From Ignavibacteria bacterium (lineage in GTDB: Bacteria > Bacteroidota > Ignavibacteria > UBA10030 > SZUA-254): 37,097 nucleotides of DNA. The notes under the pieces were generated by a model that was given only the letters and a program-made list of their open reading frames with translations, did no database searches and had not been told where the DNA came from. Positions within the stretch are counted from its first letter, which is position 1; each line of letters opens with the position of its first letter. The DNA lies in NCBI GenBank assembly GCA_016178625.1, contig JACOSX010000019.1:1-37097 (forward strand), written 5' to 3'. The position numbers and the translations under genes were made by a program. This document shows positions 7,654 to 9,964 of this stretch, piece by piece.

Positions 7654-8280
7654 TCACACGTTCTTTAGTTCGCCCGCTTTCGGTCTGACTAAGTCGAATC
7701 GATCCATCGTGCGAGTGTACGTCGGTCCGCCCATACGTCCGATCGCCTGCAGCTTGTCAGGGTCGATCTTGAAATTGTCAAGCAGCTGGTCTTGAATGTG
7801 AAACCGAACCACTTCACCGAAGACGGTACTCCCACCGCCGGGTCCTTGACCGAAATGAATAATCTGGACAAGTTTACACTCCATTTGGATGCGCGATTCC
7901 TGGACGCGCGGCGCCTTTACGAGATCGCTGGGAATGGGTGTTAAACCAGATTCTTTAAACTCATCCACATCCGGAGGAAAGTCGAACGAGCATATATTCA
8001 TCTCTTCACCAAAATCCTCGGAGACGATATTTATGACAAACTCTTTCGTTGCCTCGACATTGTTCAGGGTGTCTTTGTGCCCACCGTCTTTTCGAATGAC
8101 GGTCGAGAATAACACGATCGGCGGATTCGAACATACTCCGTTAAAGAAACTGAACGGAGCGAGGTTCCGAATCCCATCCCTACTCACGGTCGAGACAAAC
8201 GCGATCGGTCGGGGAACAATCGAACCGATCATGAGTTTATAGATGTTGCTGTAGTCGTAATCTTTGGGGTCAATGGTCAA
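7654..8280 (-). CDS. Flavin reductase family protein (FMN-binding split barrel)
   Basis: 208 residues. The family binds FMN and either reduces flavin with NAD(P)H or feeds reduced flavin to a monooxygenase. Typical features are the N-terminal IVPRPIAFVSTVS stretch, the FMN-loop region LAPFSFFNGVCSNPP, and the internal HKDT...EFVINIVSE segment. The frame has no ATG at the expected N-terminus. The TTG at 8280 gives MTIDPKDYDY, which fits the family, and AAAGGA lies ~10 nt upstream. It is the last gene of the tyrosine-catabolism series on this strand. No flavin-dependent monooxygenase is encoded here, so its substrate is unknown; a role tied to aromatic breakdown is inferred from context only. 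Confidence 0.85.
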   Translation of the reverse strand: MTIDPKDYDYSNIYKLMIGSIVPRPIAFVSTVSRDGIRNLAPFSFFNGVCSNPPIVLFSTVIRKDGGHKDTLNNVEATKEFVINIVSEDFGEEMNICSFDFPPDVDEFKESGLTPIPSDLVKAPRVQESRIQMECKLVQIIHFGQGPGGGSTVFGEVVRFHIQDQLLDNFKIDPDKLQAIGRMGGPTYTRTMDRFDLVRPKAGELKNV

Positions 8281-8300: not shown

Positions 8301-8384
8301 GATGGTAGATATGCGATGTGGGATGCTGGATGCTCGATGTCCGATGTTGGATTCTCGATGTGAGATATGCGTACTGAGATGTGC
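8301..8384 (+). repeat. Heptamer tandem array, GATNNNN x ~12 (left array)
   Basis: Twelve consecutive 7-bp units occupy 8301-8384. Eleven begin with GAT (for example GATGTGG, GATGCTG, GATGCTC, GATGTCC, GATGTTG); the unit at 8371 is degenerate. Only the first three or four bases are conserved; the last three vary. The array lies between the four-helix gene stop (8397) and the flavin reductase start (8280). Too short and irregular for CRISPR. Confidence 0.8.
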
Positions 8385-8396
8385 GCAGAAAAATAC

Positions 8397-8810
8397 TTAA
8401 GTTTCGTATTCAATAGTTTGGTCTTTCACATAGGCGGGGGGCATGTGGTCGGATGATACCGCCTCGATGAAACGAAACAACATCTTGCTGAGGTGATCGT
8501 ACCGTTCAACAAGGTCATCGTAGGCTTTCTGATCGGCCAATGATTTTGTTTCAAACAGAATTCGGAGATGGAGCGACGTTTCCTCACAAGAGCCAAAGGC
8601 ACGGTGCAGATATTGGAGATATTCATTCTTATGTCTTCGTAAGCAGTACCCTTCGACAATATTCGACGGGATTGATTTTGCAGAGCGACGAATCTGACTC
8701 CCTTCCTCATACATCTTGAACTTCGGCAACGAAAGCGATATCTTATGAATCTCTATTGCCAGTTCTTCAGAGAGCTTGTAAATATCCAGTTTTTCATATC
8801 CCTTCTCCAT
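8397..8810 (-). CDS. Four-helix bundle protein (S23/IVP family, Avd-like)
   Basis: 137 residues from the ATG at 8810. That start is chosen because GGGAGGA sits 4 nt upstream, by far the best ribosome site in this region; a GTG at 8834 would run back into the repeat array. Family features are the opening YEKLDIYKLSEELA, the central RRSAKSIPSNIVEG turn, and a third helix rich in Tyr/Leu around EYLQYLHRAFGSCEET. Proteins of this fold are encoded in 23S rRNA intervening sequences, and related ones serve as accessory (Avd) proteins of diversity-generating retroelements. No reverse transcriptase or variable repeat is in the window. Their free-standing function is unknown. The gene is bounded by inverted heptamer arrays and interrupts an otherwise metabolic operon. 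Confidence 0.88.
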   Translation of the reverse strand: MEKGYEKLDIYKLSEELAIEIHKISLSLPKFKMYEEGSQIRRSAKSIPSNIVEGYCLRRHKNEYLQYLHRAFGSCEETSLHLRILFETKSLADQKAYDDLVERYDHLSKMLFRFIEAVSSDHMPPAYVKDQTIEYET

Positions 8811-8823
8811 AATTCCTCCCTTC

Positions 8824-8858
8824 GATGAGCTCACATCTCATGTCACATATCGCATATC
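8824..8858 (-). repeat. Heptamer tandem array, inverted orientation (right array)
   Basis: Read on the minus strand the units are GATATGC, GATATGT, GACATGA, GATGTGA and GCTCATC. It begins 5 nt after the homogentisate dioxygenase stop and runs up to the four-helix ribosome site. The 23 nt at 8829-8851, reverse-complemented, match 8364-8386 of the left array at about 18 of 23 positions, so the two arrays form imperfect inverted repeats. Confidence 0.7.
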
Positions 8859-8863
8859 GGTTT

Positions 8864-9964
8864 TCATTTTTCCGCCCAGCTCTTCCAATACTCTTTCCAC
8901 TCGGCGGCTTCGCCGGCAGGAAGAACATTGATAGGATTCAAGCCGTCCAGCATCACCGCATATTCATCAGTGTGCGTCTTCGTCGCCTGATTCTTCAACG
9001 CTTTTGGATGAGGACCGTGATGGATGCCTCGCGGATGAAGCGTGACCATGCCCGCGCCAATATTGTCCTTGCTGAAAAAATTCCCGTCGTGGTAGAAGAT
9101 GAACTCATCGTAATCTGTGTTGCGGTGGAAAAAGGGGACTTTTATTGCTTCAGGATCTTCCTCAAGCGGACGCGGCAAGAAACTGCAGACCACCGCCCCC
9201 TGCGTGACAAACGTTGTGTGCGCGCTTGGAGGGAGATGTGCTCGCGGACTCATAATCGGACGGATGTCGCGCATGTTGAGCTTCCATACGGTGAGATCGC
9301 CTTTCCACCCAACAACATCAATTGGGTTGAATGGATAGAAGATGGATGAGAATTCATCATCGACCTTGATACGAACTTCCCATTCCTTATGGTCGTCAAG
9401 AATCGGTTTCGGTTCCGGTGTCGTGATTACTGCCGGATCGTACAATGCATGTTGACCAATAAGCCCTTTTTCTGGCTGTTCGAATTCTGTTTTCGATTGA
9501 ATGATAAGCAAGAAATTGTCCTTCGTCCTCGGTACGATACGGTAGGTCACTGCACGTGGGATATTGATGTAATCACCTTTCTCGAAATCCAACGGACCGA
9601 AATCCGTCTCGATCGTTCCCTCTCCGCGATGAATGAAGTATAATTCATCACCATCGGCGTTTCGGCAATAGAACGGCATCGGTTCCGAGCGACGAGACAC
9701 ATACAACTTCACGTCATTATTGCCAAGGAACGCAACCGGCGAGCCTTTCGCATCCTTGAAATCCGTAGGCTGGAGCTTGTTGCAATCGATGCAGTGGGGT
9801 CTCAACTTTCCTTCGAAACGAATCCATCCTGTCGGTGGATGGACGTGGTAAAGATGAGCTGATTTTCCGTAGAAACCTTTTCGTCCGTGTTCTTCCTCGA
9901 AGGTTCCGTTCGGAAGTCCAACGTGTGCTTGTTTGGCAGTCTTACCCTTTTGCAGTGGATACAT
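8864..9964 (-). CDS. hmgA: Homogentisate 1,2-dioxygenase
   Basis: 366 residues, a short bacterial form of the cupin enzyme. It opens the ring of homogentisate with O2 to give maleylacetoacetate, the third step of tyrosine breakdown, in the cytoplasm. The C-terminal half carries the iron-binding pattern: H280 in FFHRN, E287 in YDEFIF and H316 in the IHHGPHP loop. The N-terminal LYHVHPPTGW and DELYFIHRGEG stretches also fit. The ATG has GGAGAG about 7 nt upstream. It lies downstream of fumarylacetoacetase and 4-hydroxyphenylpyruvate dioxygenase genes on the same strand. The 183-nt gap upstream contains a short heptamer array. Confidence 0.93.
   Translation of the reverse strand: MYPLQKGKTAKQAHVGLPNGTFEEEHGRKGFYGKSAHLYHVHPPTGWIRFEGKLRPHCIDCNKLQPTDFKDAKGSPVAFLGNNDVKLYVSRRSEPMPFYCRNADGDELYFIHRGEGTIETDFGPLDFEKGDYINIPRAVTYRIVPRTKDNFLLIIQSKTEFEQPEKGLIGQHALYDPAVITTPEPKPILDDHKEWEVRIKVDDEFSSIFYPFNPIDVVGWKGDLTVWKLNMRDIRPIMSPRAHLPPSAHTTFVTQGAVVCSFLPRPLEEDPEAIKVPFFHRNTDYDEFIFYHDGNFFSKDNIGAGMVTLHPRGIHHGPHPKALKNQATKTHTDEYAVMLDGLNPINVLPAGEAAEWKEYWKSWAEK

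Follow-up and report, generated by a model that had tools for sequence, protein, structure and literature searches.

The closest known system to the locus described here is the 23S rRNA IVS carrying an IVP/S23p ORF, as in Leptospira and Coxiella, together with the insertions in the 16S and 23S rRNA genes of CPR bacteria. The Coxiella IVS bears three to four tandem GACAGAT heptamers before its ORF (PMC4990558). In CPR rRNA genes, insertions with and without an ORF have been reported at the same sites, for the insertions as a class (PMC11270868). In addition to these CPR rRNA insertions, IVP genes are already known from cas operons (PMC3936711).

Tandem heptamers have also been described on their own. 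X. campestris has 186 arrays of GGGAATC, mostly of four units, which lie between aligned ORFs near stop and start codons and in 70 cases form convergent inverted pairs (Rehm 2015, PMC4692102). Nostoc has arrays of GGGGA(C/T)T, published together with GGGAATC as G-quadruplex repeats unassociated with mobile elements (PMC4692102). The GGGAATC arrays resemble the gene-less arrays of the present study in their period of seven, their usual four units and their layout; unlike the modules described below, the Xanthomonas and Nostoc heptamers were published without an associated gene. In Beggiatoaceae, TAACTGA occurs as dispersed intergenic direct repeats near start codons (MacGregor 2015, PMC4679880) and is shared patchily with cyanobacteria (PMC4679880). 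Unlike the arrays studied here, these repeats form almost no inverted pairs, and no four-helix-bundle (FHB) gene was discussed with them. In the open-licence literature, we found no link between an FHB gene and such arrays beyond the Coxiella IVS heptamers, and no report of arrays as a general partner of FHB/IVP genes.

The window, which is the whole stretch of DNA that was analysed, comprises 37,097 nucleotides of an Ignavibacteria bacterium. The features discussed are as follows.

8301..8858, minus strand: the whole module (array, FHB gene, inverted array), between the hmgA-like and flavin reductase genes
8301..8384, plus strand: twelve heptamers GATNNNN, one degenerate; the array on the 3' side of the gene
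8397..8810, minus strand: FHB/23S rRNA IVP family gene, 137 aa, ATG start (by profile matches)
8811..8823, minus strand: ribosome-binding site region of the FHB gene, GGGAGGAATT (direct reading)
8824..8858, minus strand: four to five heptamers GATNNNN; the 5'-side array, inverted relative to the 3'-side array
8864..9964, minus strand: homogentisate 1,2-dioxygenase-like gene, the upstream neighbour (context)
7654..8280, minus strand: flavin reductase-like gene, TTG start, the downstream neighbour (context; orthologues in relatives)

The original prediction described an S23/IVP-type gene framed by opposed GATNNNN arrays, and this description proved exact, with the array positions, unit counts, arm-to-arm match and distances to the neighbouring genes all confirmed and the pattern far beyond chance. 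In the left array, GAT starts 11 of the 12 heptamers, the exception being unit 11 (GTACTGA). The right array reads, on the minus strand, GATATGC, GATATGT, GACATGA and GATGTGA, followed by one degenerate unit. After reverse complementing, the best 23-mer match between the two arms has 18 of 23 identical positions, vs 12 of 23 in direct orientation; none of 2000 shuffles reached 18 (maximum 17). Window-wide, four consecutive GATNNNN units (one mismatch allowed) were found 11 times against 0.62 expected, a number that none of 100 shuffles reached. From the stop codon of the hmgA-like gene it is 5 nt to the start of the right array, the left array ends 20 nt from the TTG start of the flavin reductase gene, and the FHB gene has a good Shine-Dalgarno sequence (GGGAGG). 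Encoded within the module we found no nuclease, recombinase or reverse transcriptase. As for the host, which had been called a catabolic operon with hmgA, the junction stands while the gene name does not: the 8864–9964 product is HmgA-like only, its match to homogentisate dioxygenase being weak (E 3e-18) and falling far short of the TIGR01015 cut-off. It may represent a distinct subfamily. The operon is apparently one of tyrosine degradation.

Compared with the 23S rRNA IVS, the module shares the IVP protein family, the sense orientation in the host transcript and the terminal inverted repeats, which in the window surround the IVP ORF. It differs in its position, which is intercistronic, between two protein genes of an operon rather than inside an rRNA gene; in its ends, both of which are tandem arrays of a 7/8-nt unit specific to the module; in encoding a protein under purifying selection; and in an arm pairing that bears no sign of RNA-stem selection.

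Regarding the protein itself, the family assignment is secure: the 137-residue product scores above the curated cut-offs of both TIGR02436 (93.9 bits against a cut-off of 24, 6e-27) and PF05635 (94 bits against 33.8, 8e-27), and its AlphaFold (AF2) model is a confident four-helix bundle with a pLDDT of 89. The best PDB match of the model is XCC0516 (2gsc, TM 0.94, normalised by target), a toroidal homopentamer (PMC4990558); BT_0352 (2rld) and Avd (4dwl, TM 0.84, normalised by target) were matched as well. Among Flavobacterium FHB orthologues dN/dS is about 0.11, and the protein is evidently under purifying selection.

The hmgA-like gene adjoins the flavin reductase gene in six genomes of the family, the window genome included. 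In G004, whose hmgA is 92% identical, the junction holds a related FHB gene (69% identical) with GAT-type arrays as in the window. In G005 (75%), it holds a different FHB gene (45% identical) bounded by an inverted array of its own, GTGATAGGTG / CACCTATCAC. In the remaining three, G008 (87%), G013 and G014, the junction is empty (loci L009, L011 and L012), with no array and a stop-to-start gap of 0 to about 65 nt. Since some relatives are empty and G005 has a different module, the insertion must have been gained, lost or exchanged, and this one junction appears to have received two different modules. The idea that a discrete module had entered the operon is thus borne out, by the empty junctions in three relatives and by related modules with the same unit elsewhere. 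As empty sites exist and other FHB genes carry inverted arrays, in many phyla (below), neither a gene fixed at this place in all relatives nor array-free FHB genes elsewhere, the two outcomes named as contrary to the prediction, is what we found.

To what extent the arrays belong to the gene family was examined in a main set of 158 distinct FHB genes (TIGR02436), drawn from the family to which the window genome belongs and, across many phyla, from named genomes whose record labels include Bacteroidota, Omnitrophota, Atribacterota, Nitrospira, Planctomycetota, Moranbacteria/Paceibacteria and others. By eye, inverted short-period sequence flanks each of the six FHB genes in the window genome; one of the six (L004, G000:C44) is apparently frameshifted. 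For the 158 loci, the inverted match between flanks had a mean local-alignment score of 18.1, vs 9.9 for flanks exchanged among loci and 11.4 for direct orientation, and 68% of loci outscored all 12 of their swapped controls (8% expected). Neighbouring control genes (87) scored 12.2 on average, and 9% of them exceeded 18.5 vs 46% of FHB genes. A period of 7 or 8 fitted best in the upstream flank of 143 genes and in the downstream flank of 132 (of 158 each), whereas shuffles were flat over 5–12. Strong arrays were present on both sides of 90 of the 158 loci, and in 85 of these the periods were concordant (57 of 7/7, 27 of 8/8 and one of 9/9). Units agree within a locus and vary widely between loci (TAGTGAA, AGTCGTA, GGAGTATT, AGGGGCAA and others). 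Arms typically have four to five units, the window module having 12 and 4–5, and they are polar: on the strand read from outside towards the gene, G exceeds C in 86% and 78% of arms. In an independent replication set of 19 loci, collected solely by similarity to XCC0516 and with one flank partly masked, 15 of 19 had both arms, and 32 of the 38 flanks had a period of 7. The phylum search for the context of XCC0516 itself returned no Xanthomonas-like genome in its sample, the best match being 60% identical. Across these loci, inverted arrays are a general feature of the FHB gene family.

The pattern has exceptions. At about a third of loci the inverted match is not clear; single arms were found at L334, L336 and L348, and direct arms at L331. 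FHB genes on cyanobacterial plasmids are bordered by heptamers that are often G-rich (AGTAGGG, AACAGGG, GTCAGGA) and mostly inverted, with some arms one-sided and one pair direct; the G-rich borders of those on Nostoc and Calothrix plasmids recall the Nostoc GGGGA(C/T)T arrays. The cyanobacterial STRR, judging by their units, may be the same thing as the FHB arrays. Three of the plasmid modules (L331, L346, L350) lie within CRISPR-cas operons (cas6/cas4; cas10/cmr3). The two arrays of L360 differ in period: the 5' one repeats ATCGTGA (period 7) and the 3' one that unit with an extra A (AATCGTGA, period 8), suggesting that a spacing of either 7 or 8 nt is tolerated. At L307 and L315, the 5' array is followed, ahead of the FHB start, by an extra inverted array, which makes a gene-less hairpin beside the module, and at L132 the downstream tpiA-like gene contains, in the 5' part of its coding region, a short 8-nt array of the type that the module itself bears.

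If array, gene and array form one module, FHB genes that are close relatives at unrelated loci should share a unit. This is what we observed. Unit similarity averaged 0.594 for FHB pairs that share at least 70% identity but lie at non-syntenic loci (25 pairs, partly non-independent), vs 0.636 for syntenic pairs and a background of 0.144; pairs less than 55% identical were at background level. For example, the genes of L077 and L099, whose record labels are Proteobacteria and delta proteobacterium, are 94% identical over 377 nt and have unrelated flanking genes; both carry TAGTGAA arrays, with different copy number and order. Likewise, in a different genus and a different operon, L131 holds a relative of the window module (74% protein identity, GAT unit). 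From the shared units of such relatives it follows that array, gene and array travel as one module.

A Flavobacterium site allows lineage to be separated from location. At the junction of gene A and NdpA, compared in 50 genomes of which two were left unassigned, a recognised FHB gene is present in 36 and absent from about a dozen. Three FHB lineages occupy this junction, each with its own unit type: class T with CTAAGGTT, class A with CAAAGGTT, and a third lineage, about 27% identical, with GTTTAAA-type arrays. Class T and class A proteins share 58% identity on average, vs 79% within T and 71% within A, the latter figure being lowered by a simple unit rule that put two third-lineage members into class A; the identity of the host gene A is the same within and between FHB classes (0.89). 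Three lineages with three units at one junction mean that the unit follows the FHB lineage, not the site or the host. In some species the junction lacks FHB and has a compact inverted hairpin, a one-arm scar or a clean 13-nt gap. No target-site duplication of the kind expected of DDE-type IS/MITE elements was obvious in this comparison, where the empty sites are strongly diverged and the module ends are the arrays, and in the genome comparisons we saw no recent insertion that bears such a duplication. The unit common to both module ends evidently accompanies the protein lineage from one locus or phylum to another, and modules appear to have been gained, lost and exchanged at operon junctions; movement between loci is probable on the same comparative grounds.

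Arrays also occur away from any FHB gene, as counted in sampled stretches of genomes. In 768 kb from five FHB-positive genomes there are 35 arrays of period 7/8 (a few of them FHB arms), and in 305 kb from two FHB-negative relatives there are none, a contrast uncorrected for phylogeny and GC content; arrays of control periods are almost absent from the same stretches. Over 119 genomes of the class, the count of ATTNNNN arrays of five units rises with that of FHB genes (rho 0.52, uncorrected for phylogeny; 0.61 in low-background genomes), an exception being G219, which is free of FHB yet has many arrays. Dispersed arrays resemble the FHB units of their own genome slightly more (0.294) than those of other genomes (0.222; p=0.046). 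Two heptamer arrays of the window genome lie in frame inside intact genes, where they apparently add about 20 residues. One, forming an inverted hairpin, is in a Ser/Thr kinase gene (L021, G000:C127:3630), and the other is in a dihydroorotase/allantoinase-like gene (L022, G000:C155:20146). In FHB-carrying genomes, gene-less arrays and hairpins are thus scattered.

Several known kinds of element were compared and set aside. REPIN/RAYT systems (REPtrons) are similar in that a single gene is bounded by inverted repeats and accompanied by many dispersed gene-less copies. The FHB module, however, has no Y1 transposase, ends in tandem arrays rather than single REP palindromes, and comes with many different units in one genome; membership was rejected, as the module has no Y1 gene and Y1 genes have different ends. 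Avd of the diversity-generating retroelements shares the pentameric four-helix-bundle fold, but no reverse transcriptase, TR/VR or target gene accompanies the FHB module, and most FHB-rich genomes are RT-free, so that this class, too, was rejected. Phage-borne cargo was dismissed, as no FHB match was found in 50,697 phage records or in a viral-contig scan; the scan looked for exact peptide patterns taken from a consensus query and thus detects close relatives only. Across G000–G014, RAYT-like Y1_Tnp and FHB genes co-occur almost perfectly, with differing ends.

Among the explanations that remain, the most serious rival, which we nevertheless consider unlikely, is an mRNA-borne IVS: the arrays would pair in the operon transcript, RNase III would cut the stem, and the module would be excised as from 23S rRNA, with selection acting on the RNA pairing. 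The Coxiella IVS, which has a protein of this family between inverted ends and carries heptamers too (PMC4990558), speaks for it, and so do the predicted arm duplex, at −49.5 kcal/mol (swapped arms, −35.9), and the orientation of the modules, 137 of 154 being co-directional with both neighbours and one opposed to both by crude ORF calls. Such co-directionality means that the FHB gene is usually transcribed with the host operon, but that is also usual for ordinary operon genes, and about four of 17 FHB genes on cyanobacterial plasmids are antisense to both neighbours, several of them keeping their arrays. Moreover, G-U compatible mismatches between arms are not enriched (147 vs 172; in Flavobacterium 31 vs 70), and the arms match by unit and phase while their exact unit order is out of register. 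The absence of a wobble bias and the lack of register disfavour selection on an RNA stem.

The other rivals fare worse. That the arrays are ordinary, slippage-prone simple repeats in or near which FHB genes land or persist by chance would agree with the abundance and variable copy number of heptamer arrays in some genomes (PMC4692102). We regard it as improbable given that other periods are near absent, that unit and period are common to both ends, that units track FHB lineage rather than host or site, and that control genes lack the pattern. A Y1/RAYT (HUH) transposase recognising the ends in trans, with the module as a REP-like passenger, seems to us equally improbable: Y1_Tnp is present in 10 of 11 FHB-positive genomes of the family, with none in three of the four FHB-negative genomes and one weak match in the fourth, yet at 40 Y1 loci the genes are bounded by conventional REP hairpins rather than period-7 arrays, and G011 has four FHB genes and no Y1 match. 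We identified no transposase sharing the module's ends. Least credible of all is a retroelement passenger, in which the module of an Avd-like FHB would be copied in trans by a reverse transcriptase. The Avd fold match and the sense orientation within operons agree with the trans-mobilisation proposed in the original prediction, but RVT_1 was found in only three of 15 family genomes, the FHB-rich G003, G004, G007, G009, G010 and G011 have no reverse transcriptase, and one FHB-negative genome carries two copies. The proposal is thus left unsupported.

The explanation that we favour, and hold to be reasonably probable, is that the window block is a copy of a widespread mobile cassette made up of a pentameric four-helix-bundle ring protein and inverted arrays of 7/8-nt units, to which the protein would itself bind. 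The best reading of this cassette is an IVS-related one. A ring of about five subunits, set beside arrays of four to five equal units, suggests that each subunit may read one unit, such that the ring would bind its own unit repeatedly, roughly one subunit per unit, with the arrays as the cognate terminal sites of their own FHB ring. Such binding could keep the two module ends matched and let the module be copied or moved by host machinery, and gene-less arrays might be copied or moved in trans in the same way. We would note that the parts are ordinary and the whole is unexpected; it is well supported that the array-gene-array cassette is very general and exchanged horizontally between operon junctions.

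A wider proposal, on which we are almost evenly balanced and lean slightly to the negative, is that these cassettes form a distinct class of recombinase-free element, in which a ring protein would recognise its own 7/8-nt arrays and spread gene-less ones. The class would be the common source of the Xanthomonas, cyanobacterial (STRR) and Coxiella IVS heptamers and of other orphan heptamers, and the 23S rRNA IVS would be the branch of it that resides in rRNA genes. XCC0516, the FHB protein with a crystal structure, comes from X. campestris, and we predict that the GGGAATC arrays are linked to FHB proteins such as this one; Xanthomonas GGGAATC, Nostoc GGGGAYT and Coxiella IVS GACAGAT may all belong to the same phenomenon.

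FHB/IVP proteins are present in very many genomes and have solved structures, while their function is not known; the sequence that travels with each FHB lineage is a concrete candidate ligand. The dispersed heptamer repeats of several bacteria likewise gain a candidate partner gene, and hence a testable origin. If FHB proteins do act on their arrays, a selfish cassette could persist in operons without a recombinase of its own.
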